Below are positions 22,079-48,547 of a stretch of DNA of 48,800 nucleotides, piece after piece. Both the position numbers and the translations under genes were made by a program. Numbering within the stretch: position 1 is the stretch's first letter; every line of letters begins with the position of its first letter. Source of the stretch: a virus; IMG/VR virus record IMGVR_UViG_3300033182_000908, positions 1 through 48,800 of that record; one strand, written 5' to 3'. The notes beneath the pieces were generated by a model. The model was not told where the DNA came from and did not search any database. It saw only the letters and a list, made by a program, of their open reading frames with translations.

Positions 22079-25000
22079 ATGGCAGAACTAGTACTTGGTA
22101 GATTAAAATTTCATTGGGCAGGCGATTGGACACCAACCACTGAATATATCAAAGATGATGTAGTAAAATACGGTCCTTCCGCTTATGTATGTACCGCAAA
22201 TCATACTTCTACATCAGAATTTGATTTCACCAAATTTGAATTAATGGCTGAAGGTGTTGCGTGGGCCGGCGAGTGGAATGATTCTACAAGTTATCAAGTT
22301 AACGACATCGTAAATTACGGTGGTGCGATTTATATTTGTATATTAGATCACGGTCCTGGAGATTCTACAGACACTTCGCCAAACAGTCAAGATTTTTGGT
22401 CAAGACTAGTAGGAGGCGTTGAATGGGACGGTAACTACGATAATTCTACAGAATACCAACGTGGAGACATCGTTAGATACGGTGGCTACACTTACATTAA
22501 TTTACAACCATCTACCGGTAACGCACCAACGGATACATTATACTGGGATATCTTAAATAGAGGATATCGCCATGTTGGTACATATCAGTCGTCTACAACG
22601 TATCTACCAGGTGAGCTTGCAAACTTTGGTGGAAGAATTTACGCTTGTCATACTACTTCACAAGGAAATGAACCAACGGAAGTTGCTTATTGGTTCTTGT
22701 TTGCAGACGGTACTAAATGGCGCGGCGACTTTGACGACAATAGCGTAGAGTATGCAATCGGTGACATAGTTAAGTATGGTCCGCGTACATACATTAATAT
22801 CTTAGGTTATACTAGCACAGGTTTATTGCTTGCAGATAACCCTACATATTGGACATTACATACAGATGGTCAAGCATGGGAAGGTACTTATAGCCATGTA
22901 ACAACTTATAAGCCTGGCGAAATCGTTAACTACGGTGCTAGAAACTATATCTGTACAGCAACAAGTTATCAACACTATCCTACAGATGCTAGTTACTGGG
23001 ATTTGTTCAGTGACGGACAACAATGGGCAGACAATTGGGCATCAGGCGTAGCATATAAGATTGGTGATATAGTTCGATATGGTGCTCGTAGTTATATTTG
23101 TATAGATGGTCATACCAGTGCAAGTAATGTGTTACCTACAGATAGTCTATTATGGGGTCTATTAAACAAAGGTCTTGATTGGAAGGGCACATGGATCAAT
23201 GGTGCAGAATATAAACTTGATGACGTTGTAGAATATAGCGGTTCTAGTTATGTTTGTATACAACCTCATAACACTTCTCTTGCTGGTAACCCAAGCACTG
23301 AAGCAACTTATTGGGAAAGTTTAGCACAAGGTGATATTAGCTCGCCAATGACTGCAACCGGTGATATCATTTATCGTAATGCAGGTGGCGCAGTAGAAAG
23401 ATTACCGATTGGTGGTGCTGGATCTTTCTTAGTTGTTAATAATGGGTTACCTAGTTGGGGTGTAAGAGCACCTGAACAAAACTTCTATGTTTCATTAACA
23501 GGTGATGATGCAAATGATGGCCGAACTCCTGCAACTGCGTGGAGAACGTTGCATAAAGCAGCAACAGAAACTTATAATTATGGACAATGTAAAATTTCTG
23601 TGTTCTCAGGAACATACGAAGAACAATGTCCTATTAAACTTGGTCGTGCAGTAGTTGTTGAAGGTGACGGTCTTGGTGCTGTAACAGTTAGTCCAAACAA
23701 CACAGTAGACAATGGTTTTGGTGTAGGTATTTCAGATGACGGATCTACTCCAAACGCAAACTCATTTGTATTCCATGTAAACAACGGCACACGTATTCGT
23801 AACATAGTATTCCGCGGATTTAGCAATGGTGCAGTTTGTGTATCACTTGATCCAGGTTCGGGTCCAGATGACACAAGCGTTTGGATTACTTCGCAATCAC
23901 CATATGTACAAAACTGTACATCATTTACTGATGGCGGCACCGGTATGATCATTGATGGTGCATTGCATAACGGTGGTTATAAGTCTATCGTTGCAAACGA
24001 CTGGACACAGATCAACTCAGACGGTTACGGAATGATCGTAAGAAACGATGGACGTTCAGAACTTGTATCATGCTTTACATACTATTGTGATATTGGTTAT
24101 CTAGCAGAAAGCGGCGGCAAGATCCGTGCTATCCAAGGTAACAACTCGTACGGTACATATGGATCTGTTGCTAAAGGTTACTCGCAAGCAGAAACACCGT
24201 TAGTTGGATTGTTACAACTTGACGACGATACTCTTAATTCTATTGCTACGTTTGGATCAAACGTACAACTTAATGCATCATATAAAGGTGCTGGAGGCGA
24301 AACATACTGGGTAGGTCACACAAATCCTACGAGCACTGGACCAACAAGTTCTTGGAATAACGCAGCATCTTATCCGTTCATTACAAAACTAGATTCGGGT
24401 GGTGGTGTAAGTTGGATTTATACATATGAATCAGCATACGGAAGTTTAAATTCTATTGTTGAATTCGATGATCAGGTATATTGCGGTGGTGTAGTTTATG
24501 ATGCGGCAACGAATAAAGGTTTCTTATTAAAAATTAACACAGCAGGTGAAATTGGTTGGCAAAAAACACTTGGCGACACCGATAAGGTTATCGATCTAAC
24601 AACTGACCAAACAACATACTTGTATGCATTATCTAATCACACAACATACGGAACATCGGTTTCTAAGGTTCAGCCAAGCGGCATCATCAGTTGGTCAAAG
24701 GCACTAGACTACAATGACAGTTCTGTAGATACTGTTGCAGGTACTAGTATATGTTATGCAGTTCCAGCAACTTCATCTACAGAGACATATACTGCCGAAG
24801 GTGATGCGACAGCAGAAGACGATTTATTCATATCACTTTATGACAGCACAGCAGGCGAAGCGATAATTGCTAGAATGACTGATCAAGGTTCATTCGTTAC
24901 ATCGTATACCTATGGTGATTTTTACATCAATAAATTAAGATTAGACTCAGGTAATGGTGATGGCATCTATATGCTGGCAGCAGGTTATTATGATGCTGGT

Positions 25001-27202
25001 GCAGTTAATAAAAATCCACTTGCAATGAGAATAAGCATAGATGGTGAAGTTGAATGGCAAGCACAATCTGCATTAACTACTTCTGAAGGCGAATTTATTG
25101 ATGTATTACCGTTGGGCGGTGATATTTATTTTGCAGGTTACATTAACGACTCTACAAATGCTTACAGTAGAGGCATGGCAGCAAGATACACATCTACCGG
25201 TAGCCAAGTCTGGAATGACTATGTTACAAACAGCACAAACGATGTTTGGTTTAATAGTGTCATACTTGACGGTGTTAACGTAGAATTAGGCGGTAATGAT
25301 GATAGTAATGGTTTACTAGTTAACATTCAACGCGATCTAGAAAACGGAATAGGTACAGTTACTTCTGGTTCCTATGCCATTGCGCAGACTAATCCAACAG
25401 TAACAAGTACAACGATTGCAACCAAAGCAATACAAGCAATTGACGATGCGAGCGTAAACATTGCAACTTCAGATACTAGTTTAACACTGAATCAAAGTCC
25501 AAGTATTACAAGAACCGTTGCTGCAACTAGAGCAGGTTTTGCTGGTATTGGTACAGGTGTTAACTTTACAGTTAATAGTGTATACCGTCAACCAAAACAA
25601 GGGTCTGTTGTTCAAATTTATGGCGATGAAGAAACTTACTTCTGTATCGGTGTAGAAAAATATCTAGCACCAACAATAACTAGTGGCAACTATCCAAATG
25701 CTATTGCTTTGTTAGATGCAAACAGAACATTCTTGCAGGCAGAAGTTATTGCATATGTTAACAATACATATAGTGGTTTAGTATATAACGAAGAATTATG
25801 TTATCGTGACGTTGGTTTAATCGTAGATGCACTATCACACGATTTAGATTACAACACAAACGGCGAAACAGTTGATGCAGCATTAACATATTACAATAAT
25901 GCTAGTAGTTTAGTTGCAATTACTACACAACAAACAGAGACGCTTGCTGCAATAGCACACCTTAAATCAGTAGCGTTGGATGTTATACAAGATAACGCAG
26001 TAACACCAACTACTGGTAACGGAGTATCTCAAGTTAGAGGTACCGCAGGCGAGGCAGGAGCAGTTACATTACTTGGTAACAATGTAGATATCATAACAAA
26101 TGTCATCAACGAAGGAGAAGCAGTTGCACCAGATAAAACTGGATACGGAAGTTGTACCATTGCACTTGACCCAGCAATTCCAAGTAACAAGACACCATCA
26201 GATGGTACTAGAGTAATATTCCGTGAGGCGTTCTCGCAGGTACGTATGACAGGACACGATTTCCTAGACATCGGTACTGGCGGCTTCGCATTAACAAATT
26301 ATCCAGTAATCATTGCTAGTGATTACTCGCAGGCTCCAGACCAGACCAGAGAAACACTTTCTGAAGATGGAGGTCGTGTGTTCTACGTAACCACTGACCA
26401 AGATGGTAACTTCCGAGTTGGTGACTACTTTAAGGTTGAACAGGCTACTGGTAGATCAACGATTAACGCACAAGAATTTAACTTGAGCGGATTGAACGAA
26501 CTGCAACTTGGTAGTATTACAGCAGGTAGACAAGGTGCTACAGTAAACGAATTTAGTACTGACGGTACGATGAGTGGTAACTCAGACACTGCTGTACCAA
26601 CTGAACGTGCTGTTAAAACTTATGTTGATACTAAGATTGGAGGAGCATCACAACTTAAAGCAGGATCTGCACCAAATGAGTCTACCTTAGAAATTACAGG
26701 TGACGGATCTGTTACTGACACTATTGACTTTAATATTGCAGGTACATTGGTTGCACAGATTGCATCACAATATCAACTTGTTCCTAAAGGTAACGGAACA
26801 ACAGATAGACCTAGTTCACCAGTTTCAGGTTGGTTAAGATTTAATACAGACATTAATGCACTTGAAGTGTACAATGGTAGTGCATGGGTTCCGGCAGGCG
26901 GACTAAGTAATGTATCTGTTGACCACACTGCTAGTCCGTATACAGCGGCTACATTCCAATTCTTATATGTTGACACTAGTGTTAATGCTGTTACGGTTAA
27001 CTTGCCATCCTCAGCAAATCAAGGTGATCAAATAAGATTTATCGACGTTGCAGGATCGTTTGCTACAAATAATTTAACAATTGGACGTAACGGATTGAAG
27101 ATTTTTGGTCTGCTAGACGACATAACTGTAAATACTACAGACGCATCATTTAGTTTAGTTTACACTGGTGCTACATATGGTTGGAAACTAATGGAGTTAT
27201 AA
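22079..27202 (+). CDS. Giant multidomain tail fibre B (1707 aa)
   Basis: It is a paralogue of the fibres at 10436 and 35481. Residues ~1-420 hold eight CBM5/12-like repeats (e.g. YQRGDIVRYGGYTYI, YKPGEIVNYGARNYIC), one more than copy A. The beta-helix-like region starts near 465 (FYVSLTGDDANDGRTP; SGTYEEQCPIKLGR). A propeller-like stretch follows (VSWIYTYESAYGS, IGWQKTLGD, LYALSNHTT). Then come a helical stretch, the GGRVFYVTTDQDGNFRVGDY module, the fibre motif (TDRPSSPVSGWLRFNTD) and a terminal domain ending YGATYGWKLMEL-like (TGATYGWKLMEL). AGGA precedes the ATG. It probably binds a different host glycan from A and C, since the repeats differ most in loop residues. Confidence 0.86.
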   Translation: MAELVLGRLKFHWAGDWTPTTEYIKDDVVKYGPSAYVCTANHTSTSEFDFTKFELMAEGVAWAGEWNDSTSYQVNDIVNYGGAIYICILDHGPGDSTDTSPNSQDFWSRLVGGVEWDGNYDNSTEYQRGDIVRYGGYTYINLQPSTGNAPTDTLYWDILNRGYRHVGTYQSSTTYLPGELANFGGRIYACHTTSQGNEPTEVAYWFLFADGTKWRGDFDDNSVEYAIGDIVKYGPRTYINILGYTSTGLLLADNPTYWTLHTDGQAWEGTYSHVTTYKPGEIVNYGARNYICTATSYQHYPTDASYWDLFSDGQQWADNWASGVAYKIGDIVRYGARSYICIDGHTSASNVLPTDSLLWGLLNKGLDWKGTWINGAEYKLDDVVEYSGSSYVCIQPHNTSLAGNPSTEATYWESLAQGDISSPMTATGDIIYRNAGGAVERLPIGGAGSFLVVNNGLPSWGVRAPEQNFYVSLTGDDANDGRTPATAWRTLHKAATETYNYGQCKISVFSGTYEEQCPIKLGRAVVVEGDGLGAVTVSPNNTVDNGFGVGISDDGSTPNANSFVFHVNNGTRIRNIVFRGFSNGAVCVSLDPGSGPDDTSVWITSQSPYVQNCTSFTDGGTGMIIDGALHNGGYKSIVANDWTQINSDGYGMIVRNDGRSELVSCFTYYCDIGYLAESGGKIRAIQGNNSYGTYGSVAKGYSQAETPLVGLLQLDDDTLNSIATFGSNVQLNASYKGAGGETYWVGHTNPTSTGPTSSWNNAASYPFITKLDSGGGVSWIYTYESAYGSLNSIVEFDDQVYCGGVVYDAATNKGFLLKINTAGEIGWQKTLGDTDKVIDLTTDQTTYLYALSNHTTYGTSVSKVQPSGIISWSKALDYNDSSVDTVAGTSICYAVPATSSTETYTAEGDATAEDDLFISLYDSTAGEAIIARMTDQGSFVTSYTYGDFYINKLRLDSGNGDGIYMLAAGYYDAGAVNKNPLAMRISIDGEVEWQAQSALTTSEGEFIDVLPLGGDIYFAGYINDSTNAYSRGMAARYTSTGSQVWNDYVTNSTNDVWFNSVILDGVNVELGGNDDSNGLLVNIQRDLENGIGTVTSGSYAIAQTNPTVTSTTIATKAIQAIDDASVNIATSDTSLTLNQSPSITRTVAATRAGFAGIGTGVNFTVNSVYRQPKQGSVVQIYGDEETYFCIGVEKYLAPTITSGNYPNAIALLDANRTFLQAEVIAYVNNTYSGLVYNEELCYRDVGLIVDALSHDLDYNTNGETVDAALTYYNNASSLVAITTQQTETLAAIAHLKSVALDVIQDNAVTPTTGNGVSQVRGTAGEAGAVTLLGNNVDIITNVINEGEAVAPDKTGYGSCTIALDPAIPSNKTPSDGTRVIFREAFSQVRMTGHDFLDIGTGGFALTNYPVIIASDYSQAPDQTRETLSEDGGRVFYVTTDQDGNFRVGDYFKVEQATGRSTINAQEFNLSGLNELQLGSITAGRQGATVNEFSTDGTMSGNSDTAVPTERAVKTYVDTKIGGASQLKAGSAPNESTLEITGDGSVTDTIDFNIAGTLVAQIASQYQLVPKGNGTTDRPSSPVSGWLRFNTDINALEVYNGSAWVPAGGLSNVSVDHTASPYTAATFQFLYVDTSVNAVTVNLPSSANQGDQIRFIDVAGSFATNNLTIGRNGLKIFGLLDDITVNTTDASFSLVYTGATYGWKLMEL

Positions 27203-27205: not shown

Positions 27206-28828
27206 ATGGCTATAAATTACGAACGTAAAAAAAATACAGATACCAAGTTTGGTGGAACTGAAGGTATTACAGTTCCGTCAGGAGATAACAGTGAGCGTAA
27301 CGGAGCAGTTGGCGAAATACGTTACAATTCAGAGCTTGGTTATGCAGAAGTTTACGGTTCTTTAGGTTGGGGCGTATTTGGTGCACCGCCTCCGACTATT
27401 ACTTCCGTAAATCCTACAACATATAACGGTGAAGTTGGAACAACTATTACTATTAATGGCAGTAACTTTGATGCAAGTTCCATAGTATCATTTACTACAC
27501 AAGGAGCAGTAGAAACAAATGCTACAGTTACTACATATGTAAATTCTAACCAATTAACAGCCACAACTCCTCAAGATTATCTAGCAACAGACGGACCATT
27601 GACTATTAAAGTTACACAAAGCAGTGGCGATGCAACGTTAAGTGACGCATTGTCAACTGGTTCGGGGCCTGCCTGGCAAACAGCAGCAGGATCATTAGGT
27701 ATCTTTTATAGTAGCGCAAGTGCAAGTATTACATTATCAGCGACAGACCCAGATGCAGGAGCAACAGTTTCTTATGCTATTACATCAGGTGCATTACCGT
27801 CTGGCGTATCAATGAGCAGTGCTGGCGCAATTACAGGAACGTACCCAAGTGTTGGTTCTAGTACAAACTATAACTTTACCGTAAGAGCTACTGACAATGC
27901 CGGCAACACTTCTGATCGTAGTTTTAGCATAACAGTAAGTCCTGCTTATATGACAGCATCAGGCGGCAATACTATAGGTACTGATGGTGATTATAAATAT
28001 CATATTTTCAACGGTAACGGAACATTTACCGTAAATGCAGTAGGCGGCGATGCAACGTATGGCAATAAGGTTCGTTACTTAATCATCGCAGGCGGTGGCG
28101 GCGGTGGTGGCTTTGGTTCTACCGATAACTTTGGATCTGCCGGAGGCGGTGGTGCAGGTGGCTATTTGACCACTGGCAACGATGATACTTCTGGTTCTTA
28201 CAATGTTACTGTTACTGCAACAGGATATCCGATATCTGTTGGAGGCGGAGGTGCCGGTGGTGTGGGTACAGGACAAGGAAGCAATGGAGGAAACTCTAGT
28301 GCATTTAGTGTAACTGCTACTGGTGGCGGTGGTGGCGGACGCCAAGACTTAGCAGGCAATCCGGGCGGTTCAGGCGGCGGATCAGGAACTGACGGACAAG
28401 GTCGTGACGCAAATAGTTCAGGAACACCTGGACAAGGCAACCCAGGCGGCCGCGGCGCTCCTACCCAAACAGGTATGGGCGGTGGCGGTGGTGGTGCAGG
28501 CGGTGCCGGCCAAACCGGTAACCAAAACAAAACTGGCGGAGTTGGTGGACCAGGCCTAGCATCAAATATCACTGGTACTAGCATATATCGTGCAGGCGGT
28601 GGCGGTGGAGCAAGTTATCCAGGCGGACCGCATCCAAATACGGCGCCACCAAACAGTGCAGGCGGCGGAACTGGAAACACTAGTCCGGAAGGTAACGGAA
28701 CACCTGGAACTGCGAATACAGGCGGTGGCGGTGGAGCCGCTAATGACCAGGACCCGCGTAACTCTCCACAGTTTTTTGGCGGAACTGGCGGTTCGGGTGT
28801 AGTTATCGTTAGGTATAAGTATCAATAA
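27206..28828 (+). CDS. Glycine-rich fibre tip/adhesin B (540 aa)
   Basis: Starting 3 nt after the giant fibre stop, it opens with the fibre motif (TVPSGDNSERNGAVGEIRYN). An IPT/TIG-like Ig domain (~60-150) and a putative Ig domain (~172-247, SATDPDAGATVSYAITSGAL) follow. Residues ~255-540 are glycine-rich with many Pro-Gly pairs (SSGTPGQGNPGGRGAP) and end VVIVRYKYQ, equal in style to 'IVVIRYD' after the glycine-rich part of copy A. There is no cysteine in the glycine-rich part. It is probably the receptor-contacting partner of fibre B. High G+C in the glycine stretch makes several long but spurious frames on the other strand. Confidence 0.82.
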   Translation: MAINYERKKNTDTKFGGTEGITVPSGDNSERNGAVGEIRYNSELGYAEVYGSLGWGVFGAPPPTITSVNPTTYNGEVGTTITINGSNFDASSIVSFTTQGAVETNATVTTYVNSNQLTATTPQDYLATDGPLTIKVTQSSGDATLSDALSTGSGPAWQTAAGSLGIFYSSASASITLSATDPDAGATVSYAITSGALPSGVSMSSAGAITGTYPSVGSSTNYNFTVRATDNAGNTSDRSFSITVSPAYMTASGGNTIGTDGDYKYHIFNGNGTFTVNAVGGDATYGNKVRYLIIAGGGGGGGFGSTDNFGSAGGGGAGGYLTTGNDDTSGSYNVTVTATGYPISVGGGGAGGVGTGQGSNGGNSSAFSVTATGGGGGGRQDLAGNPGGSGGGSGTDGQGRDANSSGTPGQGNPGGRGAPTQTGMGGGGGGAGGAGQTGNQNKTGGVGGPGLASNITGTSIYRAGGGGGASYPGGPHPNTAPPNSAGGGTGNTSPEGNGTPGTANTGGGGGAANDQDPRNSPQFFGGTGGSGVVIVRYKYQ

Positions 28829-28837: not shown

Positions 28838-29293
28838 ATGGCTCATTTTGCAAAATTAAATCATCTAGGTATAGTTATTGATGTTGTTGTTGTCGACAAT
28901 GACGACATGCTTGACGAGACTGGACATGAAAACGAACAAACTGGAATAGAATTTTTAAAAAACTGGTCCGGTGGGCACGAACGTTGGGTACAAACTTCTG
29001 TTAATACTATGAGAAACACACACAGATTTGGTGGGACTCCGTTGCGTTTAAATTATGCAAGCATAGGTGGTACTTATGATAAGGTTAGAGACGCTTTCAT
29101 TGAATGGCGCCCAAATAATCTAGATGTTATCTTAGATGAAGATAATGGAATATGGTTATTTCCACATCATCAAAATGTTCCTCAAGATCCAGAAGACACT
29201 GCCGATACATACCCACAGCCAAACATAGATCCTACATCTTATTACGATTGGGATTCAACAAATTGGACATGGGTTAAGAAGGCTCGTACTTAA
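28838..29293 (+). CDS. Conserved-type hypothetical phage protein (151 aa)
   Basis: AAGGACAG precedes the start. The opening MAHFAKLNHLGIVIDVVVVD, the WVQTSVNTMRN segment and the LRLNYASIGGTYDKVRDAF segment are typical of a small protein that recurs near fibre and structural genes in marine phages. The function of that group is not known to me. The C-terminal third is rich in Asp, Pro and Trp. It closes the cassette B operon; its last 20 nt overlap the oppositely oriented oxygenase gene. Confidence 0.78.
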   Translation: MAHFAKLNHLGIVIDVVVVDNDDMLDETGHENEQTGIEFLKNWSGGHERWVQTSVNTMRNTHRFGGTPLRLNYASIGGTYDKVRDAFIEWRPNNLDVILDEDNGIWLFPHHQNVPQDPEDTADTYPQPNIDPTSYYDWDSTNWTWVKKART

Positions 29294-29849
29294 TAGAAGT
29301 ATAATCATCGATTAATAAATTAAAAGCGATGGAGATTCTTTCTTCATCGCTTTTGTTTGGTTCAACATCATGTTTAACCCATCCAGGAAAGATTAACAAT
29401 AAGTTTGGTTCTGGAATAAACGAATGGTAATTATTTCCATCGTTGTAATATTTCATATCAGGTGCACTTGTTATGTAAGGCCGAGGATCGAATAATCTTA
29501 TTCTTCCGCAATCTTTAGGTGCAGCAACATAAAAAACTCCGCTTAAAAATGTACCTGCATACGGATTATGATCGTGTATATCATTGTATTCATTTTTATT
29601 ATTAATATTAACCCAGTACTCTAAACTTAAATTTATATCAGGTTTATCGTTTCTCGACGGAATGTTGTCTATGATAATTTGTTCTAAAGGTTCGTAATAA
29701 AATCCGTGTCCTTGATATCCACCCCTGTTAGATATAGTTATACCTTTTGTAGATTTTTGAAATTCTTTAACCTTAGTATACATATCATCAATGTCTAAAT
29801 TACAATTTATGCTGTATACACGAGTTGAAAACAAATCTAACGTTGTCAT
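29274..29849 (-). CDS. 2OG/Fe(II) oxygenase-like protein 1 (191 aa)
   Basis: This is the last gene of the ten-gene array. The double-stranded beta-helix signature reads H92-D-H94 followed by AGTFLSGVFYVAA, distal His160 (LIFPGWVKHDVEP) and Arg171 (EERISIAFN), the residue expected to hold 2OG. Where classic enzymes have H-x-D, this one has H-x-H-N, so the carboxylate ligand is not obvious. It most resembles the TIGR02466-type putative 2OG oxygenases. The substrate is unknown. Start and upstream stop overlap as ATGA. The coding of residues 166-176, including Arg171, doubles as a terminator for the opposite strand. Confidence 0.82.
   Translation of the reverse strand: MTTLDLFSTRVYSINCNLDIDDMYTKVKEFQKSTKGITISNRGGYQGHGFYYEPLEQIIIDNIPSRNDKPDINLSLEYWVNINNKNEYNDIHDHNPYAGTFLSGVFYVAAPKDCGRIRLFDPRPYITSAPDMKYYNDGNNYHSFIPEPNLLLIFPGWVKHDVEPNKSDEERISIAFNLLIDDYTSIKYEPS
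29322..29358 (+). terminator. Rho-independent terminator inside the opposing gene
   Basis: A 14-bp stem (29322-29335 with 29341-29354, one G-T pair) closes on TTCTT and ends in TTTTGTTT. It lies 28 nt after the stop of the plus-strand gene at 28838 and would end the cassette B transcript before it runs further antisense to the oxygenase genes. The opposite strand also ends in TTTTAATTT, so weaker termination in the other direction is possible. Confidence 0.8.
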
Positions 29850-30472
29850 AATTTAACTGCCCTGTGTAACGGATCTAACGGATTATTGTTATTGCTTCGA
29901 AATTGTTCCATTCCTTCTTTGGTTATAATATCAATGCCTATTGTATAACGTGAATCGTCCTTTAATTCTTTTACCGAATGAGGAACATAAGAAGGAAAAA
30001 ATGCTATACGACCCATTTTATTTTCTAATTCAAATAATCCATCATTTGCAGAAATATACGGAATATCAAAGTCTGTTGTAGTTTCATTTCTTGTCAATAC
30101 AATGTTCGCGCTTAAATATGAATTTTCATGTATAGCATGATTATGTCTTTTTAAAATCATTCCTTTTTTCTGCGGATACACCCAACCATTGATCCAGAGT
30201 TCTTTCGGTACAGGCAAGTTTAATGCAGATAAAAATTCATCGTGCATCCTACGTACTTCTTGCTTTAGCACAGAAAGTGATACATTAGGCCAAGTAAATA
30301 TATTATACTCTGTCCAATGCATTGGTATTATATCTTCTTCTTTATGTAAAATAGAATTTAGTATCTTATACGTTAAGGTTTCGTCTAGCTCGTCGACCCA
30401 AATAGGTAAATCTAAGACAGGAGCGAATGGTGAATTTGGTTTTAGTGTTTTCCATTGATATAACTTATCCAT
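29846..30472 (-). CDS. 2OG/Fe(II) oxygenase-like protein 2 (208 aa)
   Basis: The core is H110-N-H112-AI-H115-E-N-S followed by YLSANIVL, distal His165 (AFFPSYVPHSV) and Arg175 (DSRYTIGIDI). The metal-binding carboxylate is ambiguous (H115-x-N or Glu116). The N-terminal half (ILHKEEDIIP, RRMHDEFLSALNL) matches that of oxygenase 4 (ILTREKDIIS, RYMHDQFVEGLGF), so these two form a subfamily. The start overlaps the upstream stop (TAATG). The substrate is unknown. Confidence 0.8.
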   Translation of the reverse strand: MDKLYQWKTLKPNSPFAPVLDLPIWVDELDETLTYKILNSILHKEEDIIPMHWTEYNIFTWPNVSLSVLKQEVRRMHDEFLSALNLPVPKELWINGWVYPQKKGMILKRHNHAIHENSYLSANIVLTRNETTTDFDIPYISANDGLFELENKMGRIAFFPSYVPHSVKELKDDSRYTIGIDIITKEGMEQFRSNNNNPLDPLHRAVKL

Positions 30473-31056
30473 TATGATATCCTAAAATTAATATTAAATG
30501 AGATGATAATCTTATCTTCACCCGGCGGCTGTTTTGGAGTTCCGTGCTGTAAGTTGCTTTTCCACATTAATAATCTTCCAGGTATACACTCATATGCGGT
30601 AAATGTATAACTTAATTGGGTAGGATATTCCGGAACCATAGACATATCACTATGATCATAAAAAATAATCTTAGAACCTTTAGGAGCCTGAATATAAAAC
30701 ACGCCCGACAGAAAACTGTTCTGGTGTATATGCGATTCAAGAAAGTCGCCTTCTTTACTAATGTTTGCCCACATATTAGTTACACATAACTTGTCTATGG
30801 TATCATCTGTATATCCAAATTCTACAGCAAATTGCTTTGCTTTGTCTAATATTTTTACTGTCAGGTCATTAAACATCGGGTCTAAGTGCATACGATTATC
30901 AGTTAAGTGTGTGCTGTTAACTTCAAAGATTTCTTGCCTAATGCTGCCTGCTTTTTCGACCCACAAAGTTACATTAGATGCAATAGTTTGTAAAGAATCT
31001 TTTTCAAAATCCTCACACACAAGTATTGATTTTGGAAACCAGGATTCTATCTTCAT
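30472..31056 (-). CDS. 2OG/Fe(II) oxygenase-like protein 3 (194 aa)
   Basis: The signature is H109-I-H111-Q-N-S-FLSGVFYIQAP, distal His171 (SNLQHGTPK) and, at the 2OG-binding place, Lys182 (EDKIIISFN) instead of Arg. It belongs with oxygenases 1, 6 and 12 (the SGVFY / TIGR02466-like group). Lys in this place is tolerated in some 2OG enzymes, so activity is possible. It overlaps both neighbours by 1-4 nt, so it is co-translated. Confidence 0.82.
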   Translation of the reverse strand: MKIESWFPKSILVCEDFEKDSLQTIASNVTLWVEKAGSIRQEIFEVNSTHLTDNRMHLDPMFNDLTVKILDKAKQFAVEFGYTDDTIDKLCVTNMWANISKEGDFLESHIHQNSFLSGVFYIQAPKGSKIIFYDHSDMSMVPEYPTQLSYTFTAYECIPGRLLMWKSNLQHGTPKQPPGEDKIIISFNINFRIS

Positions 31057-31706
31057 AACTTAATCCAATGTTCCTTCTTGTTTACAAATATATCTTCATC
31101 AAAGACAATTTGAGGAATAATATCAAATGCTATTGTAATTCGTTCATTATTGCCTTGATGAACGTCAGTATAATGCTCTATCCAGTTTGGAAATAATGTT
31201 AACTTTCCTGGAATGTTTTCTGACGCATAAGGTTCGTTTGTATATGGATTAACATAATTTGTATGTGTGTTTGATTGTTGTACACATACATGGCCTCCTA
31301 GATATGTATAAGGACTTTTCCAATGCTGATGTAATTTAATTTGTTCACCTTTGCGCATTACGTTTGCCCAGCACTGAGCATAGATATTACCATCAGTAGT
31401 AAATCCTAAACCTTCAACAAATTGATCGTGCATATATCTTATTGCATTTTTTAACTGTTGTGCCTCAGACCAAAATAATAAATTATAAGAGTCTGAACGA
31501 GATGTTATGCTAGTGCTACCTAAACCAGTACCCCAATCAGAAGTATAATTGTAGCGAGAAATAATATCCTTTTCTCGTGTCAATATGACATCTTTCAATT
31601 CATCTAAATCTACCATAGAAGAAATATCCGCCTCAAAAATTGAATAGTTCCATTGCGGCGCAAAGATTGTTTTTGGTAGATCATTTACAAAATTTAAAAT
31701 ATTCAT
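31053..31706 (-). CDS. 2OG/Fe(II) oxygenase-like protein 4 (217 aa)
   Basis: The longest of the array apart from number 10. The signature is H126-Q-H128 (EQIKLHQHWKSPYTYLGGHV), distal His178 (LFPNWIEHYTDVH) and Arg189 (NERITIAFDI). It pairs with oxygenase 2 through its N-terminal half. The position normally holding Asp/Glu is His or Trp, so the metal site may be of a two-histidine kind. The substrate is not known. Confidence 0.8.
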   Translation of the reverse strand: MNILNFVNDLPKTIFAPQWNYSIFEADISSMVDLDELKDVILTREKDIISRYNYTSDWGTGLGSTSITSRSDSYNLLFWSEAQQLKNAIRYMHDQFVEGLGFTTDGNIYAQCWANVMRKGEQIKLHQHWKSPYTYLGGHVCVQQSNTHTNYVNPYTNEPYASENIPGKLTLFPNWIEHYTDVHQGNNERITIAFDIIPQIVFDEDIFVNKKEHWIKL

Positions 31707-31707
31707 A

Positions 31708-32205
31708 TCAAAAATAATTAAAGTTAACTGTTATCCTGTATTTTTGATCACTACATGTAGTACTATGATGAGGTATTTGAGGATCAAATAATAACACTCT
31801 ATTTTCTATAGATTCTACTTCTATCTTATTATCTAAAACTGTCACTCCGTTATTTGTATTAACGAATAACAATGCTGCCTTATGATTAAAATCGTAGTCC
31901 TTATGATCTCTATGGTGTACAACTTCTGATGTTGATGGATATAAGTTGCCCTTTATCCTAATAAGAGATTTACATTCAACCATAGTTAAAAATTGTTCAA
32001 ACATCAAAAAGTTATCTGACCTTACTCTATGATCAGCATAGAATAGATGTGTAAAATAATAATCTTTTGGATTTGTTACTAAATCGTCCTCTGAAGATAT
32101 AAAATTATTAAGATACCACGCCAAATTTTGGCTCTCCATGATTCCATATTGAATCATTTTAAAATCATCTTCTGGTAAAAAATTATCTATTATTTCGTAG
32201 TTCAT
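31708..32205 (-). CDS. 2OG/Fe(II) oxygenase-like protein 5 (165 aa)
   Basis: The shortest member, with a canonical-looking H98-R-D100 (EVVHHRDHKDYDF), distal His146/147 (QIPHHSTTCSD) and Arg157 (KYRITVNFNYF). The opening YEIIDNFLPEDDF is typical of phage 2OG oxygenases of the prolyl-hydroxylase-like fold. It has all residues expected of an active enzyme. It is 1 nt from the upstream gene and overlaps the downstream message layout as one operon. Confidence 0.83.
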   Translation of the reverse strand: MNYEIIDNFLPEDDFKMIQYGIMESQNLAWYLNNFISSEDDLVTNPKDYYFTHLFYADHRVRSDNFLMFEQFLTMVECKSLIRIKGNLYPSTSEVVHHRDHKDYDFNHKAALLFVNTNNGVTVLDNKIEVESIENRVLLFDPQIPHHSTTCSDQKYRITVNFNYF

Positions 32206-32768
32206 TTGCGTTCTCTAACTTTGGTATCTATGGCAATAGATATACGATCTTCATTGCTATTGTTTTTGTTGACAAAGTGCCACAGCCACGATGGAAATAT
32301 TACTAACTTCCCTGGTTCAGGATCAACCCACCATGTAGGCGACAAGTATTTGTTATATGTATCTATCATTTTATGATTAACCACAGGCAACATCTGGTTA
32401 ACTGGTGTTAAAAATTCTAGTCTACCTGATTCTTCTCCTTCTCCCGTTACAAAATATACGCACGAAAAAAATGATTCTGGATGACAATGCGGGGCAACAA
32501 TGTCTTTAGTACAATTTAAATTTGCCCAATACCTCCATATGTATTGTTCCCATTTAGTAGATAACCCTATGTGTGCATGAACAGCATTTACTCGATTAAT
32601 GACTTTGGACAGTAAAGGTTGTAGTTCGTCCGCACTAAGGTCTAGACTTCCGGTATTGGTATTGTCACCTTTTGTTATATGCCGCAAGCAATAATCTTTA
32701 ATAGACGTGTTATCTAAATCAAGATTATCGAAAACTAAAAATGATGTAAATATTTCCTCAATTTGCAT
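32202..32768 (-). CDS. 2OG/Fe(II) oxygenase-like protein 6 (188 aa)
   Basis: The signature is H94-C-H96-P-E-S-FFSCVYFVTG, distal His164 (IFPSWLWHFVNK) and Arg175 (EDRISIAIDTK). It belongs to the SGVFY/TIGR02466-like group with 1, 3 and 12. Glu98 lies two residues after the second His, so H96-x-E98 could supply the usual carboxylate. The substrate is unknown. Confidence 0.83.
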   Translation of the reverse strand: MQIEEIFTSFLVFDNLDLDNTSIKDYCLRHITKGDNTNTGSLDLSADELQPLLSKVINRVNAVHAHIGLSTKWEQYIWRYWANLNCTKDIVAPHCHPESFFSCVYFVTGEGEESGRLEFLTPVNQMLPVVNHKMIDTYNKYLSPTWWVDPEPGKLVIFPSWLWHFVNKNNSNEDRISIAIDTKVRERK

Positions 32769-33313
32769 TAAAGATCTAACTCCTCAGCAGGTTTAGTACC
32801 GTACCACATAGATAAGGTATACCGTGAACCTTTAACAACGTCCATAACACAATGATTTTCTGTCTTGCCTTTAAAATAAACAGTCCTACCTACTAGCGGT
32901 TCAACAGTCACGCCGTTAATAACTGTTTGTCCCCCAACAAAATCGTCATTTAAATATGTAATTGAACTAGCAGTTGTTGTATCTCTAGCAACATCAAAGT
33001 GAAAGGGTTTTGAAACTCCTTGCGGGTACTCTGTTAAATCTATGTAATGAATGTATTGATAATCGGGATCGTGTGCTACTGCTTGTTTTACTACATCTGC
33101 AAGAGCAAGAATAGCACGATAGTCTTTTCCAGAAAGGTGCCCAGGAATTTGATAATATTCAGCCTCGCCTTTATCGTTAAGTCTTTCCTTGCCATCCTTG
33201 ACTCTTAAAATATTTGTACCGTGCCATTGGTCAAGTTGAGGTGCCGACTTAAAAAGATTTAAAATAAAATCAATGTAGGTTTGATGTACAACGGTGTTGC
33301 TTATATAAATCAT
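32768..33313 (-). CDS. Prolyl-4-hydroxylase-like 2OG oxygenase 7 (181 aa)
   Basis: This is a canonical enzyme layout: H105-F-D107 (SKPFHFDVARD), a SSITYLNDDFVGGQTVI strand typical of the prolyl 4-hydroxylase alpha-subunit-like family, distal His154 (KTENHCVMDV) and Arg164 (SRYTLSMWYG). Of the array, this and number 8 are the best candidates for protein (prolyl) hydroxylation, by family resemblance only. Confidence 0.88.
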   Translation of the reverse strand: MIYISNTVVHQTYIDFILNLFKSAPQLDQWHGTNILRVKDGKERLNDKGEAEYYQIPGHLSGKDYRAILALADVVKQAVAHDPDYQYIHYIDLTEYPQGVSKPFHFDVARDTTTASSITYLNDDFVGGQTVINGVTVEPLVGRTVYFKGKTENHCVMDVVKGSRYTLSMWYGTKPAEELDL

Positions 33314-33891
33314 TTAAATGGTTTTCCTAACGCCCACATCACCAAAGTATACCTTGTACCAAATGTAACCGGATGTACTCTATGATATAAAAACGATGGA
33401 AACACTACTATAGATCCTTGAGGTCTTAATTCAGGGGCTAGTTTAGTATCTGTCAGTCTTCCTAGATCAAATTCTAATTCTCCACCGCCAAATGTATCTG
33501 GATCACTTAAATGCAATATAGTGGTCAACTTTCTATACATTCCATCAAAGTTACCATTGGTGTAAGTTTTTGCATTTTGATCTGAATGCCAATGATAATA
33601 TTGACCGGGCTTGTATATAGTAAATTGCATCTCTTCGCACCATTCCCAATCAAAGTTCCATTCAGCACGTTGATTTGCTTCGTCCATTCGTGCTTGCATT
33701 ATTTCATATAGCCATTTATCATTCATCCAAGTAACTTCTGAATTCCTCCATTGCTTTACCTTGTCTGGATCTTTTTCTCCGTGTATGGCTCCTGTATTTG
33801 CTTCTTTTTGTAGACCCATTTCAATAATGCTTTCGCAGGTTTCCTTAGGTACCTCTGATTGAAAATACCAATAACTATGTGTTAAAATCAT
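33310..33891 (-). CDS. PKHD/PiuC-type 2OG oxygenase 8 (193 aa)
   Basis: Canonical H102-S-D104 (GQYYHWHSDQNAK), a LTTILHLSDPDTFGGGELEF strand pair, distal His170 (VFPSFLYHRVHPVT) and Arg180 (TRYTLVMWALG). The 'FPS..HRV.PVT.G.R' stretch is the hallmark of the PKHD-hydroxylase branch of the prolyl-4-hydroxylase family, common in marine T4-like phages. The substrate is unknown. Confidence 0.9.
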   Translation of the reverse strand: MILTHSYWYFQSEVPKETCESIIEMGLQKEANTGAIHGEKDPDKVKQWRNSEVTWMNDKWLYEIMQARMDEANQRAEWNFDWEWCEEMQFTIYKPGQYYHWHSDQNAKTYTNGNFDGMYRKLTTILHLSDPDTFGGGELEFDLGRLTDTKLAPELRPQGSIVVFPSFLYHRVHPVTFGTRYTLVMWALGKPFK

Positions 33892-34469
33892 TCTTCGTTC
33901 TCCATGTCATAAGAGTACCAACCTGTAGTTATATATTTTGTTTGTGTATTTGATACAACTCCTCTATGGAGATGTGTCCAGTCAACCGGCCATATGACCG
34001 TTAACCCTTTTTTTGGACTGATTGATAAGTTCTGATGCAACCATTCTGTCTGTCCAGCATCAGTGACGTCATTAAGGTACGTCATGAATACTAGATGTCG
34101 TGTCGCTGGAATAAGCGATGGTCCAGAACGTTCACAATGCCATGACTTAAACCCTTGTCCGGGCAAATATCGTTGTATATTAAAGTTTTGAGTAATGCTC
34201 CACTTTGCTTGATTCAGTGATGACCAAGGATATCTTTCTATGTATTTGTTACAAACAAATTTGACATATGACAAATATTCTTGTATTATAGGGTCTGGAT
34301 CTCTAGGATTTACTACAACATCTGTAGAATCTTTTTGAGAAGTGTCTACTCGTATAGGTCCGCCAACCTTCCCTGCATTCTTATGCGGAGATTCTTCAAA
34401 ATAGTTAATCATCTTATCACATATTTGATGATCAATTTCTAACCCAAATATAAACGGTGCATATTCCAT
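33888..34469 (-). CDS. 2OG/Fe(II) oxygenase 9, HxE type (193 aa)
   Basis: The signature is H111-C-E113 (GFKSWHCERSG), LVFMTYLNDVTDAGQTEW, distal His168 (PVDWTHLHRGVV) and Lys178 (QTKYITTGWYS) at the 2OG place. The 'WTH.HRG' and 'TGWY' patterns mark a known phage oxygenase subgroup distinct from its neighbours. Asp/Glu exchange in the triad is accepted in this superfamily. It overlaps both neighbours (ATGA and TAATG). Confidence 0.86.
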   Translation of the reverse strand: MEYAPFIFGLEIDHQICDKMINYFEESPHKNAGKVGGPIRVDTSQKDSTDVVVNPRDPDPIIQEYLSYVKFVCNKYIERYPWSSLNQAKWSITQNFNIQRYLPGQGFKSWHCERSGPSLIPATRHLVFMTYLNDVTDAGQTEWLHQNLSISPKKGLTVIWPVDWTHLHRGVVSNTQTKYITTGWYSYDMENEE

Positions 34470-35116
34470 TAATTTAATCCTGATGCTACCCCGAGCAAAT
34501 CCCTTCCATCAAACAGTTCTTCTTTGTATCTGCCATTTGCATCAGTGAAATGTAAAAACATCTGAGCATGGTTAATACCTTTAAAAGCATCTCGCCAATG
34601 GCTTAAATCACAACCCCTATACACCAACATGTCTCCGGGGTTAAGTATTACAGATACTTCGTCGTCACTTCTAAATTTTCTAAGATTAATAGGCCAACTA
34701 TAATTACCTGCAAGATTACTGATATCATACCCTAAACATATAGTCGATGATATTTCGCAACTTGGTCGATCGGTATGCTTATGCAATTCTGCATTTGTGT
34801 AATATAACCTCCAATAACTGTAATTTGGCAATAATGTTTTTCCAGTAAAGGACTCCATATCAGGTAACATCATTTCAAGTATAGAATCACCTAAAGGATC
34901 TCCATAGTACGCAAATGAATGTTCACCAAACGAATCGCCAAATTTTCCGTCCCACTCCTTGTCATATTTGTCAGGACTTTTTTCCATCTTATAACGAGTA
35001 GCCTCTGAATGCATTATGAAATATCTATACAATATTGTACACATCTCCTGACTTAAAAATTCACGTATCACAACATAACGCTCTTTTTCAAAATGTTTTT
35101 GGATGTCTTTAACCAT
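34469..35116 (-). CDS. 2OG/Fe(II) oxygenase 10, first gene of the array (215 aa)
   Basis: The start is set at 35116 (MVKDIQKHFEKERYVVIREF) because AGGA lies 7 nt before it; an in-frame ATG at 35140 has no ribosome site. Triad: H114-T-D116 (ELHKHTDRPSCEI), a CLGYDI strand, and distal His173 (DLSHWRDAF). The usual Arg is not clear (HAQMFLHFTD instead). The YVVIREFLSQEMC opening is typical of a phage oxygenase group. As the promoter-proximal gene it would be transcribed first; no late-promoter motif is visible on this strand in the 97-nt gap to 35214. Confidence 0.86.
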   Translation of the reverse strand: MVKDIQKHFEKERYVVIREFLSQEMCTILYRYFIMHSEATRYKMEKSPDKYDKEWDGKFGDSFGEHSFAYYGDPLGDSILEMMLPDMESFTGKTLLPNYSYWRLYYTNAELHKHTDRPSCEISSTICLGYDISNLAGNYSWPINLRKFRSDDEVSVILNPGDMLVYRGCDLSHWRDAFKGINHAQMFLHFTDANGRYKEELFDGRDLLGVASGLN

Positions 35117-35187
35117 TCTATTTCCTATTATCTTATACATACATAATTATCAAAGAAATACAAGATTTTTTTAGATTCTGATATTGG

Positions 35188-35480: not shown

Positions 35481-38400
35481 ATGGCCATTAGTACTATATC
35501 ACTTGGTAAAGTTAAATTCAATTGGAAGGGCGATTGGGCTACTTCCACAGCATATGTGAAGGACGACGTAGTAAAATACGGTCCGAACGTTTACACTTGC
35601 TTAACAGCACACACTTCACAAGGAACCTTTGCGCCTGATATTGCTAAATGGGATTTAATGGTTGCTGGTTTGGAAAATGCTGGCGTCTGGGGTAGCGGAA
35701 CACTTTACCAACTCGGACAGACAGTAACATATGGTGGTGCTGTTTATATTGCAATACAAGAATCAACAAATCAAAATCCGTACACAGAAACAGCATACTG
35801 GCAGCGTTTTGTAGATGGTCAACAGTTTGAAGGTGAATTTAATCCTGCAACTAATTATCAGAAAGGTGATATTATCACATACGGTGGTTATTCGTATGTA
35901 GCAAAACAAAATACTCTTAGTAATAATCCAACCAATACAACGTACTGGGACATTTATATCAAAGGTTTTAACTTGTCAGGCGATTATAATGCAGCAGTAC
36001 AATATAAACCCGGTGATGTTGTAATATATGGCGGAAACAGATATATTGTTAATGAAGGAGAGCGTCCGCTAGGTGTTCTTCCTACGGTAACTGCAAGTTA
36101 TACATTATTAGTTTCAGGATTTAATTATTCAGGTACTTGGAACTCTGCAACAGAATACCAACCAGGTGATGTTGTACGCTATGGCGGTAGAGTATATGTT
36201 GCATCATCTACCAGCACAAATAGTAAACCATCAGTAGGTCTTAATTTTGGTTTATTAGCCGACGGCTTTACTTGGAGAGGCGTTTGGTCTTCAAGCACGG
36301 CATATGCTGTAGGCGAGATTGTTAGATTTGGCGGAAAGACTTATCTTTGCACAGCAGACACTAGCGGAAATGCTCCAGATGTAAATGGTTCGTTTACATT
36401 ATTTGCCGATGGCATACAATGGGCAGGTGTTTATTCAGATAGTTCAAGTTATCTAAAAGGCGACGTTGTAAGATTCAGCGGTAGATCATTTATTTGTATC
36501 GAATCGTATGACAACGACGGATCGACAACTCCTGAACCGCCAAACTCAGATTTCTGGGAATTATTTGTTGACGGTATGTCGTGGAAAGGCGTATGGTCAA
36601 ACGGAACACAATATGAATATGGTGATGTTGTTGAATACAGTCAAAGTTCATATATCTGTGTAGGCAATGATGTTACGGGAGTAACTCCTGGCACCGATCC
36701 TGCAAGTTGGAATTTAGTTGCGCAAGGCGATATTAGCTCACCGATGACTACTACAGGTGACATCATTTATCGTAATGCAAGCGGTAACGTAGATCGTTTA
36801 GGTATCGGAGATGATGGTTCATTCTTGATCGTTAATAATGGTATACCTAGTTGGGGTCATAGAACGCCACAGAACGATTACTATGTATCATTAGATGGTG
36901 ATGATGCAAACGATGGACGTACTCCTACATCGTCATTTAGAACAATTAAACATGCTGCAGAAGTAACTTACAATTTAGGACAATGCCGTATTAACGTACA
37001 TGCAGGTACGTATGAAGAACAGTGTCCTATTAAGATCGGCCGCAGCGTAGTTGTAGAAGGTAATGGTCTTGGAGCAGTTACTATATCTCCAGACACTACA
37101 AATGATAACGGATTTGGTGTAGGTATTTCAGACGACGGTTCCACTCCAAATGCAAACTCGTACATATTCTTAATGAATAACGCTGCAAGATTGCGTAACT
37201 TTGTATTCCGTAACTTCTCAACTGGCTCAGTTTGTGTATCACTTGATCCAGGTTCAGGACCTGATGATACATCAGTATGGATCACATCACAGTCACCTTA
37301 TGTACAAAACTGTACTTCGTTTACCCCAGGTGGTACTGGTATGAAGGTCGATGGTGCACTGCATAACGGTGGTTATAAGTCTATCGTTAACAATGACTTT
37401 ACACAAATCAACTCGGATGGTATCGGTGTACACTGTTTAAATGATGGTAGAACTGAAATCGTTTCTTGTTTTACATATTACTGTAACATTGGCTATTTGG
37501 CAGAAAGTGGTGCTAAGATACGTGGTATCGTTGGTAATAACTCATACGGCGAGTACGGATGTGTTGCCCGTGGTTATTCTGCTGCTGAGGATCCATTGAC
37601 TGGTAAACTAAGACTAAATGATGCTACAATCGAATCAGTAATACAACTAGGTTCAAGCGTCCATGCATATACTTCATATAGAGATAGTGTCGGTAATAGA
37701 TTCTTTGTAGGCCATACAAACCCAACAGGTACCGATATATCTAGTACTTGGAATAACGCTGCATCAGAACCATTTATTGCAAAGTATAATTCAGCAGGTT
37801 CGCTTGATTGGATATATACCTACACAGGATTATACGGTTCTATACATAGTGCCGTTGAATTAAGTGATAGAATTTATGCATGTGGTTGTGTATACGATGG
37901 CGGTGCAAATAAAGGTTTCATCCTTTCGATATCAAAAGCAGGTGAAATCCAATGGCAAAAGACAATTGGCAATACCACAGAAATCGTTGATGTTACAACA
38001 GACGGTGATTACTTGTATGCAGTTGGTACCCATAGTACAGCCGGAATATCTCTTATTAAATTAAACCCGGCAGGTGTAGAACAGTTCTCAAGAACTTTAG
38101 AATATAACGACAGTTCGGCAACAGGTACACTTGCACCTACTAGTTGTTGTTTTGCAGATAGTCCAACTTCGTCTATCGATACATATGCATTGGCAGGCGA
38201 TGCTACCGCAGAAGATAATATCTTTATTGCAGCATATGATAGCACAGTTAATGAAGGTTTAATTATTAGAGTTAACAAACTAGGCGGCTTCGAACAAGCA
38301 TATCAATATGGCGATGTTAGAATTAACGCACTTAACATTGACTTAGGTAATGGCGATGGCATTTACTTAATGGCAGCAGGTTATTACAATCCTACCCCAG

Positions 38401-42472: not shown

Positions 42473-43211
42473 TTCCATATAGGTTATTCTCTATTTGAGA
42501 ATAACCGTTTTTAGAAAGCAAATCTAAGATTTCATTTGTGGTGCTATTGTATAACGATAATTTATCGTTAAACGGATTAACATAGATATAAGGAGCATTC
42601 TTTTTTATAGTTTCTGCGGCCCCAAGCAACACCCGTAACTCAAATCCGTTTACATCAATATAAATTAAATCTACATCAGTAAACCCAAAATGATCTAACC
42701 TATGCTGTTTTGTTAATGTGTATTCTACTTCACTGCCCATTTTTTCTGTTCCTAGCGCAGGAGTAGATATGCAGGATTGCGCATAATCTCCTAGGTCATC
42801 AATCGTTTCAATGCAATACTTGTCACTATCAGTAATGGCATAATGATACGGGTTTATGGTTATATTATTATTGTTATGCCATGCGTTTTCTGCATTTGCC
42901 TTAAGCAGTTTAACTGATCTTGGATTGCAATCAAATGATTCTACAACTTCTGATATCTTGCTTAATTCTACGGTAGTTTTCCCCACCATTGCACCTATGT
43001 CAATAGTTCTCCGTAACGATTTATCCTTAAAAAAATCTAAATGTAGTATCTGAGAATTTAAGTATTTGACCATATTTGCATCGCTGTTTGGAACCCAATA
43101 GCATTCTTCGTCATCAGTTTGTAAAAGTTTATAATTTAAATTATCAAAGAGTTGACTACCTTCTTCAACATCATATAATTCTTCAAAATCTTTTGGAGTT
43201 AAAAATCTCAT
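42462..43211 (-). CDS. FkbM-type SAM-dependent methyltransferase (249 aa)
   Basis: The start is placed at 43211 (MRFLTPKDFEEL) because GAGGAATA precedes it and it abuts the upstream stop; a longer frame reaching 43265 would overlap that gene by 53 nt. SAM-binding motif I is TIDIGAMVGKTT (71-77), an acidic residue follows at Asp95 (ESFDCNP), and LIYIDVNGFELRVLLGA (182-198) matches the FkbM signature, with Asn188 where Glu is usual. FkbM enzymes O-methylate sugars or small molecules. A role in modifying phage or host glycans is possible. Its last codons form the opposing terminator at 42482. Confidence 0.85.
   Translation of the reverse strand: MRFLTPKDFEELYDVEEGSQLFDNLNYKLLQTDDEECYWVPNSDANMVKYLNSQILHLDFFKDKSLRRTIDIGAMVGKTTVELSKISEVVESFDCNPRSVKLLKANAENAWHNNNNITINPYHYAITDSDKYCIETIDDLGDYAQSCISTPALGTEKMGSEVEYTLTKQHRLDHFGFTDVDLIYIDVNGFELRVLLGAAETIKKNAPYIYVNPFNDKLSLYNSTTNEILDLLSKNGYSQIENNLYGISK
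42482..42512 (+). terminator. Rho-independent terminator inside the opposing gene
   Basis: A perfect 10-bp stem, GGTTATTCTC (42482-42491) with GAGAATAACC (42497-42506), closes on TATTT and is followed by GTTTTT. It lies 10 nt after the cassette C stop and ends the plus-strand operon. The same bases code the last residues (NGYSQIENNLYG) of the minus-strand methyltransferase. No T-run follows on the minus strand, so it acts in one direction. Confidence 0.88.
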
Positions 43212-43212
43212 A

Positions 43213-48543: not shown

Positions 48544-48547
48544 ATAC

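Follow-up and report, generated by a model that had tools for sequence, protein, structure and literature searches.

What could a phage do with ten adjacent genes for enzymes of the 2-oxoglutarate (2OG)/Fe(II) oxygenase type? The question is raised by a 48.8-kb linear virus record, IMGVR_UViG_3300033182_000908 (analysed over its whole length of 48,800 nucleotides and called the window here; no larger genome stands behind the record), in which ten consecutive minus-strand open reading frames (ORFs), named g1 to g10, fill positions 29274–35140. Few unexplained genes are commoner in ocean phages than those for oxygenases of this type, for which the published guesses are nitrogen signalling, DNA repair, and haem. 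The locus in the window holds ten genes of one fold class with conserved active-site residues, arranged in an order and in a tail-tip neighbourhood that recur in several phage lineages. Such a conserved order beside tail-tip genes gives these oxygenases a testable address, namely the adhesion apparatus or the surface that it binds.

Gene Block and Fold Assignment

Each ORF of the block encodes 165–223 residues, and neighbouring ORFs overlap by 1 or 4 bases or sit one base apart, a tight spacing that suggests a single transcript with translational coupling. A sequence-only reading of the same DNA had described ten adjacent, overlapping or abutting minus-strand genes of 165–217 residues. ORF analysis recovers all ten; the length range stands if g10 starts at an internal ATG at 35116 but is exceeded if it starts at 35140 (223 residues). 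Promoter and terminator scans and a search for the T4-late-type motif TATAAATA gave nothing above shuffled sequences and allow no inference on the timing of expression.

Pfam searches place g1, g3, g4, and g6 in PF13759 and g7, g8, and g9 in PF13640, all above the curated cut-off. Against PF13759, g2 scores 25.5 bits, just under the 27-bit cut-off, and 27.9 bits with neighbours in frame. No usable Pfam match was obtained for g5 or g10, and since these two are also labelled "DNA endonuclease V" and "ferrochelatase," respectively, they were chosen for structure prediction. The AlphaFold2 model of g10 (mean predicted local distance difference test score, pLDDT, 93.6) has Pseudomonas putida prolyl-4-hydroxylase (P4H) and PHD2 as its best Foldseek matches, while the model of g5 (mean pLDDT 89.2) has a Dictyostelium PHD and PHD2, in both cases with probability 1.0.

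Two additional oxygenase-type genes, g11 and g12, lie outside the block. Iterated single-gene hidden Markov models (HMMs) of g1–g8 and g12 find most or all of the remaining members, with fewer recovered by that of g5; the g10 HMM finds only g10, which is itself recovered by the g6 and g12 HMMs. A double-stranded β-helix fold is thus supported for all ten proteins, by Pfam (g1, g3, g4, g6–g9), by phrog_81 and the cross-HMMs (g2), or by AlphaFold2 with Foldseek (g5, g10), as the sequence-only reading had proposed, and the assignments to PF13759, PF13640, phrog_274, and phrog_2954 bear out its view that several subfamilies are present. By sequence, g1–g4 and g6 belong to PF13759/TIGR02466, whose family name is "putative 2OG-Fe(II) oxygenase," and their use of 2OG is putative. 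The likeness of g5 and g10 to prolyl hydroxylases is one of fold, and proline hydroxylation by either is likewise putative. Oxidation of a substrate with 2OG and O2 would be the predicted chemistry of the block proteins.

Metal-Site and 2OG-Anchor Residues

Residue conservation was counted over 9–130 aligned orthologues per gene, except for g6, which has no close orthologue. The 2-His-1-carboxylate motif HxD/E...H is present in g5, g7, g8, g9, and g10, where it is invariant or nearly so across 55–130 orthologues per gene. The residues are HxD(101,103)...H146...R157 in g5 (H, D, and H kept in 61/61), HxD(105,107)...H154...RxT(164) in g7 (H, D, H, and R in 55/55), HxD(102,104)...H170...RxS/T(180) in g8 (H, D, H, and R in 130/130), HxE(111,113)...H168...K178 in g9 (first H in 111/111, E in 110/111, distal H and K in 111/111), and HxD(122,124)...H181 in g10 (H, D, and H in 119/119).

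The motif is absent from g1–g4 and g6, which carry HxH...H instead: HxH(92,94)...H160...RxS(171) in g1 (invariant in 9 orthologues), HxH(110,112)...H165...R175 in g2 (kept in 28/28), HxH(109,111)...H171...K182 in g3, HxH(126,128) in g4, whose distal His is kept in the group-wide PF13759 alignment, and HxH(94,96)...H164...RxS(175) in g6. Five of the ten proteins therefore fall outside the textbook motif. Throughout the PF13759 alignment (g1–g4, g6, g11, g12, and relatives), HxH...H is found in 137/137 rows and is followed downstream by Arg in 118 and by Lys in 8 of them; the solved relatives 2rg4 and 3bvc also align with HxH. Our literature search for a three-histidine 2OG site turned up only EgtB, which belongs to a different family, and the papers found that name PF13759/TIGR02466 are, to judge by their titles and abstracts, genome surveys, with no biochemical characterization found among them.

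An Arg or Lys about 10–11 residues past the distal His is kept in orthologues of g1, g2, g3, g5, g7, g8, and g9. In this usual 2OG-anchor region a Gln is nearly invariant in g10, whose distal His is followed two residues later by an Arg that does not vary. The signature that had been claimed for all ten genes, an N-proximal His pair or HxD/E and a downstream Arg or Lys, consequently needs amendment: HxD/E holds for g5 and g7–g10, g1–g4 and g6 have HxH, and the basic residue is kept in the orthologue sets just named, with a near-invariant Gln in that region of g10.

Conserved Order beside Tail-Tip Genes

The order g9-g8-g7-g5-g4-g2 seen in the window is shared by 68 of the 74 loci that carry four or more of these orthologues, and the other six differ only by an additional, later g5-like gene. 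Upstream of the cassette, 44 of the 48 loci whose sequence extends 1.5 kb or more on that side carry the phrog_2295 glycine-rich tail-tip gene (∼1.6 kb), the phrog_7759 gene (∼0.6 kb), or both; in the remaining four, the tip gene comes after the first oxygenase gene. That an ordered cassette recurs in other marine phages agrees with the earlier suggestion that different activities were gathered by selection. The window keeps the core order, yet its adjacent tip and phrog_7759 genes lie on the other strand and converge on the 3′ end of the cassette rather than standing upstream. Contig L128 resembles the window in having g10 first and a convergent tip gene.

Loci with g10 were also collected separately, and related contigs make up most of this set. 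Of its 78 loci with sequence directly downstream, 47 encode there a phrog_3287-type homologue of a virion structural protein, and in 58/80 a virion, tail, or phrog_7759 protein is encoded within three genes. The cassette or smaller versions of it are found near tail genes in isolates of different lineages (S-RSM4, S-SM1, Mosig, HTVC023P, HTVC033P, and 023Pt_psg01). The smaller sets containing g10 occur both in T4-like pelagiphages (Mosig, HTVC008M) and in short-genome pelagiphages (HTVC023P, HTVC033P).

Some relatives of the cassette contain further genes or domains. A small gene of 78–124 residues follows g5 in several of them (L008:13345–13581, L128:3676–3996, L129:4468–4839, L177:7710–8066) and is absent from the window. 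Between g4 and g2, S-RSM4 (L008:14796–15497) and S-SM1 (L009:15530–16231) carry phrog_33749, which may be an oxygenase that has diverged or else a partner. In S-T4 (L036:9983–11143) and ACG-2014f (L122:7974–9062), a g10-type domain is fused to a second PF13640-like oxygenase domain.

Relatedness and Cluster Size

Pairwise identity among the twelve oxygenase-type genes of the window (g1–g12) is 16–30%, whereas most of the ten are 32–58% identical to orthologues in other phages, with g4 reaching 50–56% against those of S-RSM4, S-SM1, and contig L013 and g9 reaching 55% against that of S-SM1. In phylogenetic trees, g2, g3, g4, g5, g7, and g9 group not with each other but with genes from viral contigs, S-RSM4, and, g3 excepted, S-SM1; the g2 clade holds genes of S-RSM4, S-SM1, and L014, and g8 falls inside a clade of phage homologues. 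No close relatives of g1, g6, g11, or g12 were present in the first tree set; g1 has a 49% identical relative in L129, and g6 is missing from the S-RSM4-type cassette. The low identity between paralogues, set against the higher identity to orthologues elsewhere, excludes recent tandem duplication, in keeping with the earlier view that these are not copies of one gene. Chance ORFs are excluded by the family matches and conserved residues.

We scanned 254 loci, picked by similarity to the block genes, with the same fixed HMMs. Single-protein scans had given few relatives in viral contigs, and alignment queries found more. The set contains many short contigs, some in two overlapping fetches, and its counts describe the set and not the ocean. 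The ten genes of the window form its longest uninterrupted run, followed by runs of nine (L257), eight (L085, L251), and six (four loci), and in 61 of the 254 loci the longest run is five. When spacers of up to 900 bases are allowed, three loci reach 12 genes, five reach 10, and 24 reach nine. The isolated cyanophages S-RSM4 and S-SM1 have nine such genes in eleven-gene loci, and S-CREM1 has nine adjacent ones by its deposited annotation. Ten genes in tandem had been taken to lie far beyond anything known; given these isolates and the contigs with up to 12, the number is at the top of the known range and not outside it.

Two Probably Misleading Family Labels

The g5 and g10 families bear names that hide part of such clusters. 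For g10 (phrog_2954) and four relatives, there is no ferrochelatase Pfam match at E ≤ 1, and the best 50 Foldseek matches listed for the g10 model are almost all 2OG oxygenases, with no ferrochelatase among them. For g5 (phrog_274) and three relatives, there is no match to PF03013 (Pyr_excise), and the predicted fold is that of a prolyl hydroxylase, whereas the genuine pyrimidine-dimer glycosylase of S-CREM1 matches PF03013 at 4.4e-13. On the strength of the predicted folds and the missing Pfam matches, both labels are most likely wrong. This probably applies to hundreds of phage genes, since both labels are in wide use, and the labels have prompted a haem/iron reading in print.

Surroundings of the Block and Phage Backbone

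One giant tail fibre lies on each side of the block, the two being paralogues, and the tip and phrog_7759 genes are convergent with the block (Table 1). Four giant tail-fibre-like genes are present in the window; the CBM_5_12 repeats in one of them are carbohydrate-binding, and a subtilase-type (S8) peptidase gene lies within the tail-fibre region.

Table 1. Coordinates of the Oxygenase-Type Genes and Other Features of the Window
Feature	Position	Strand	Assignment and support
g1	29274..29849	-	PF13759/TIGR02466-type oxygenase fold; Pfam 1.3e-22, TIGR02466 1.4e-23
g2	29846..30472	-	PF13759-like (under Pfam cut-off); phrog_81 2.9e-17
g3	30472..31056	-	PF13759/TIGR02466-type; Pfam 6.5e-18, TIGR02466 2.3e-20
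g4	31053..31706	-	PF13759-type; Pfam 3.4e-10
g5	31708..32205	-	phrog_274 1.6e-39 ("DNA endonuclease V" label); prolyl-hydroxylase-type fold
g6	32202..32768	-	PF13759/TIGR02466-type; Pfam 8e-22, TIGR02466 3e-19
g7	32768..33313	-	PF13640-type, Pfam 1.1e-9; phrog_2297 ("DNA endonuclease" label)
g8	33310..33891	-	PF13640-type, PiuC/PKHD-like; Pfam 1.4e-14; PiuC structures 2.9e-8
g9	33888..34469	-	PF13640-type; Pfam 4e-8
g10	34469..35140	-	phrog_2954 ("ferrochelatase" label); P4H-type fold
g11	43213..43767	-	additional PF13759/phrog_81-type gene outside the block
g12	44355..44996	+	additional PF13759/phrog_81-type gene; phrog_81 1.1e-37, Pfam 1.2e-20
Glycine-rich/immunoglobulin (Ig)-like tail-tip (adhesin-type) protein	27206..28828	+	Pfam Gly_rich_2, He_PIG, TIG; phrog_2295 2.1e-53
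phrog_7759 gene	28838..29293	+	phrog_7759 2.1e-29; converges with and overlaps the g1 3′ end; between tip gene and cassette in relatives
Giant tail fibre left of the block	22079..27202	+	phrog_9851 tail fiber 8.4e-201; C-terminal end resembles the Mosig tail fibre
Second giant tail fibre, right of the block and paralogous to the left one	35481..40826	+	phrog_9851 2.5e-203; CBM_5_12 repeats (PF02839)
Tail-tip-type protein following the second fibre, Ig-like (He_PIG)	40805..42472	+	Pfam 3.2e-13; similar to Mosig 7132–8682 beside the Mosig tail fibre
FkbM-type methyltransferase	42462..43265	-	Pfam PF05050 3.4e-11; overlaps g11
Giant tail-fibre-like gene	10436..15442		
Giant tail-fibre-like gene	3282..9857		
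Subtilase-type (S8) peptidase	20111..21670		

The sequence-only reading had set the block against marine T4-like phages, which were said usually to carry a few such genes scattered through the genome. The two virion proteins tested in the window, a tail-sheath-type and a head-type protein (within 45728–48606), are closest to the jumbo phages Phosso, Atu_ph07, and PA5oct at 33–40% identity; a T4-like cyanophage as the source of the window is thus unsupported by these two proteins. Their affinity to jumbo phages makes it probable that the window was cut from a much larger phage genome. The core cassette genes are ∼40–58% identical to loci of the T4-like cyanophage type, and the tail-tip protein is closest to proteins of Pelagibacter, Methylophilales, and Roseobacter phages. 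Cassette and backbone would accordingly have different histories, the virion proteins being jumbo-like and the core cassette genes cyanophage-like, and exchange of an adhesion-plus-oxygenase module between phage lineages seems the simplest reading.

Proposed Function and Alternatives

We propose that the block is a mobile, adhesion-linked cassette of about ten diverged, probably iron-dependent double-stranded β-helix oxygenases, which would be made from one transcript and retained beside tail-fibre and tail-tip genes. The tail-gene neighbourhood together with the protein-hydroxylase-type folds points to adhesion proteins, or the surface they bind, as the target. The enzymes may act late in infection on proteins of the phage's own virion, such as those of the fibre and tip, and hydroxylate or otherwise oxidise their side chains, with a distinct residue or site for each enzyme; the oxidation would tune receptor binding or fibre stability. 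We offer this oxidation of the phage's own virion (adhesion) proteins tentatively, as somewhat short of an even chance. If modification of the virion were shown, post-translational oxidation would be a new layer in how phages set their host range.

Several points weigh against this proposal. We know of no substrate, activity, or virion modification for the cassette enzymes. Cassette and fibres occupy opposite strands in the window and so are not cotranscribed, and the Foldseek likeness to protein hydroxylases, being a likeness of predicted folds, would not fix the substrate. Some g10 relatives lie away from tail genes, between dam and gp62 in P-SSM7 and near nrd genes in ACG-2014f, and the clusters of syn9 and S-CREM1 come a few genes after tryptophan halogenase genes (L035:355–3460 in syn9, L121:402–2006 in S-CREM1) and not after an annotated fibre. 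The locus counts are also not counts of independent events, since the sets consist of fragments chosen by similarity that share ancestry. A more far-reaching version, in which up to a dozen oxygenases, half of them three-histidine proteins, form a swappable finishing line that patterns oxidised residues on the receptor-binding proteins of its own phage and moves together with these across unrelated lineages, is unlikely, and we know of no multienzyme oxidative tailoring of phage tail proteins.

The same tail-tip linkage could mean that the target is the host surface (lipopolysaccharide, O-antigen, S-layer, or outer membrane proteins), altered by the enzymes so that an infected cell stops binding sibling or rival phages. 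LpxO, a 2OG/Fe oxygenase that acts on lipid A, would be a precedent, and both the FkbM methyltransferase gene overlapping g11 and the weak similarity between g6 and a sporadic carbohydrate cluster oxygenase model fit this idea. The closest solved folds or sequences of the three genes tested are nevertheless protein hydroxylases or PiuC, and the annotations of the S-RSM4, S-SM1, and Mosig cassettes include no glycosyltransferase or glycan genes. We consider host-surface modification rather improbable, and equally so the corollary that the linkage reflects coevolution of a receptor binder with a receptor editor. If the HxH...H proteins, invariant as they are across g1–g4, g6, g11, g12, and their relatives, were not 2OG oxygenases at all, many of the genes could instead encode metal-binding β-helix proteins that serve the assembly of fibres as structural components or chaperones, for which the tail-gene neighbourhood would again be natural. 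The usual 2OG-anchoring basic residue is kept in most of this group, and its invariant histidines suggest a working metal site; a noncatalytic role is therefore very unlikely.

Other substrates would place the cassette outside adhesion. That the enzymes hypermodify or repair DNA, or build a small molecule together with tryptophan halogenases, is suggested by the DNA endonuclease labels of two families, by halogenases near such genes in S-CREM1, syn9, and S-H38, and by a literature proposal of DNA repair. Among the ten proteins, no TET/JBP- or AlkB-type Pfam model matches at E ≤ 1, the endonuclease V label is unsupported by Pfam or fold, and no halogenase is found in the examined S-RSM4, S-SM1, Mosig, or window loci; this route is thus highly doubtful. 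From the abundance of 2OG oxygenase genes and NtcA sites in cyanophages, a role in the nitrogen signal has been proposed (PMC3037559), by which the enzymes would draw down host 2OG, shifting the NtcA-read nitrogen status or making succinate. Ten diverged enzymes with conserved sites and order would be superfluous for consuming 2OG, their tail-tip linkage would be left unexplained, and related sets also occur in SAR11 phages. To our knowledge, SAR11 hosts lack the cyanobacterial NtcA system, and we regard the draw-down of 2OG as a long shot. Self-modification of virion proteins is the reading that we prefer to all of these, though with a confidence that stays below even.

Comparison with Known Systems

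Our literature search, which covered few subscription papers or preprints, returned no description of an ordered tail-tip-linked cassette, of mislabelled members, or of the HxH group in the texts as available, and searches combining prolyl hydroxylase, tail fibre, and collagen in phages found nothing. Marine phage proteins with PHD-like folds are reported in PMC12774648. At the level of single proteins, g10 and g5 are alike in fold to P. putida P4H (4j25/4iw3) and PHD2, with ∼10–16% identity by fold alignment, and g8 is similar in sequence to PiuC.

Cyanophage S-SCSM1 is credited with 24 2OG-Fe(II) oxygenase genes (PMC9602691) and, like the window, has many diverged PF13640/PF13759 genes in one genome; unlike the window, these are spread over the genome in short groups by ORF number, and the available text describes no adhesion-linked cassette. 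In pelagiphages of the HTVC023P type, the sets are smaller than in the window. The HTVC023P "ferrochelatase" (gp67) is a g10-family member that lies next to 2OG genes. In the source paper, pelagiphage 2OG genes are described as nearby though nonadjacent and the ferrochelatase gene as always having a 2OG gene beside it, and the two are read as iron/haem partners (PMC9599517). Judging from the g10 model, the family of gp67 most likely has a 2OG-type hydroxylase fold, unlike that published reading.

S-CREM1 comes nearer, with nine adjacent genes (ORFs 72–80, OP535465) annotated as 2OG-Fe(II) oxygenases or JmjC and a g10 relative at the end of the cluster; its members differ from those of the window, and the cluster adjoins a tryptophan halogenase. 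The S-CREM1 paper counts ten 2OG genes, and the portion available to us does not remark on their adjacency (PMC9964418).

The closest counterparts are S-RSM4 (NC_013085, SRSM4_132–142) and S-SM1 (NC_015282, SSM1_051–061), which carry seven or eight of the ten families of the window in one run (g3, g9, g8, g7, g5, g4, g2, and g10, with g3 not seen in S-SM1). As in the window, the run lies beside a tail fibre, a phrog_2295 tip gene, and a phrog_7759 gene, and the core order is identical. These loci differ from the window in having g10 last instead of first and, in S-RSM4, g3 first; in containing two non-oxygenase spacers and one extra PF13640-type gene; in being without g1 or g6; and in standing on the same strand as the fibres within a T4-like genome. 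What the window shares with them, the order g9-g8-g7-g5-g4-g2 beside the tip gene and its partner, looks to be new.

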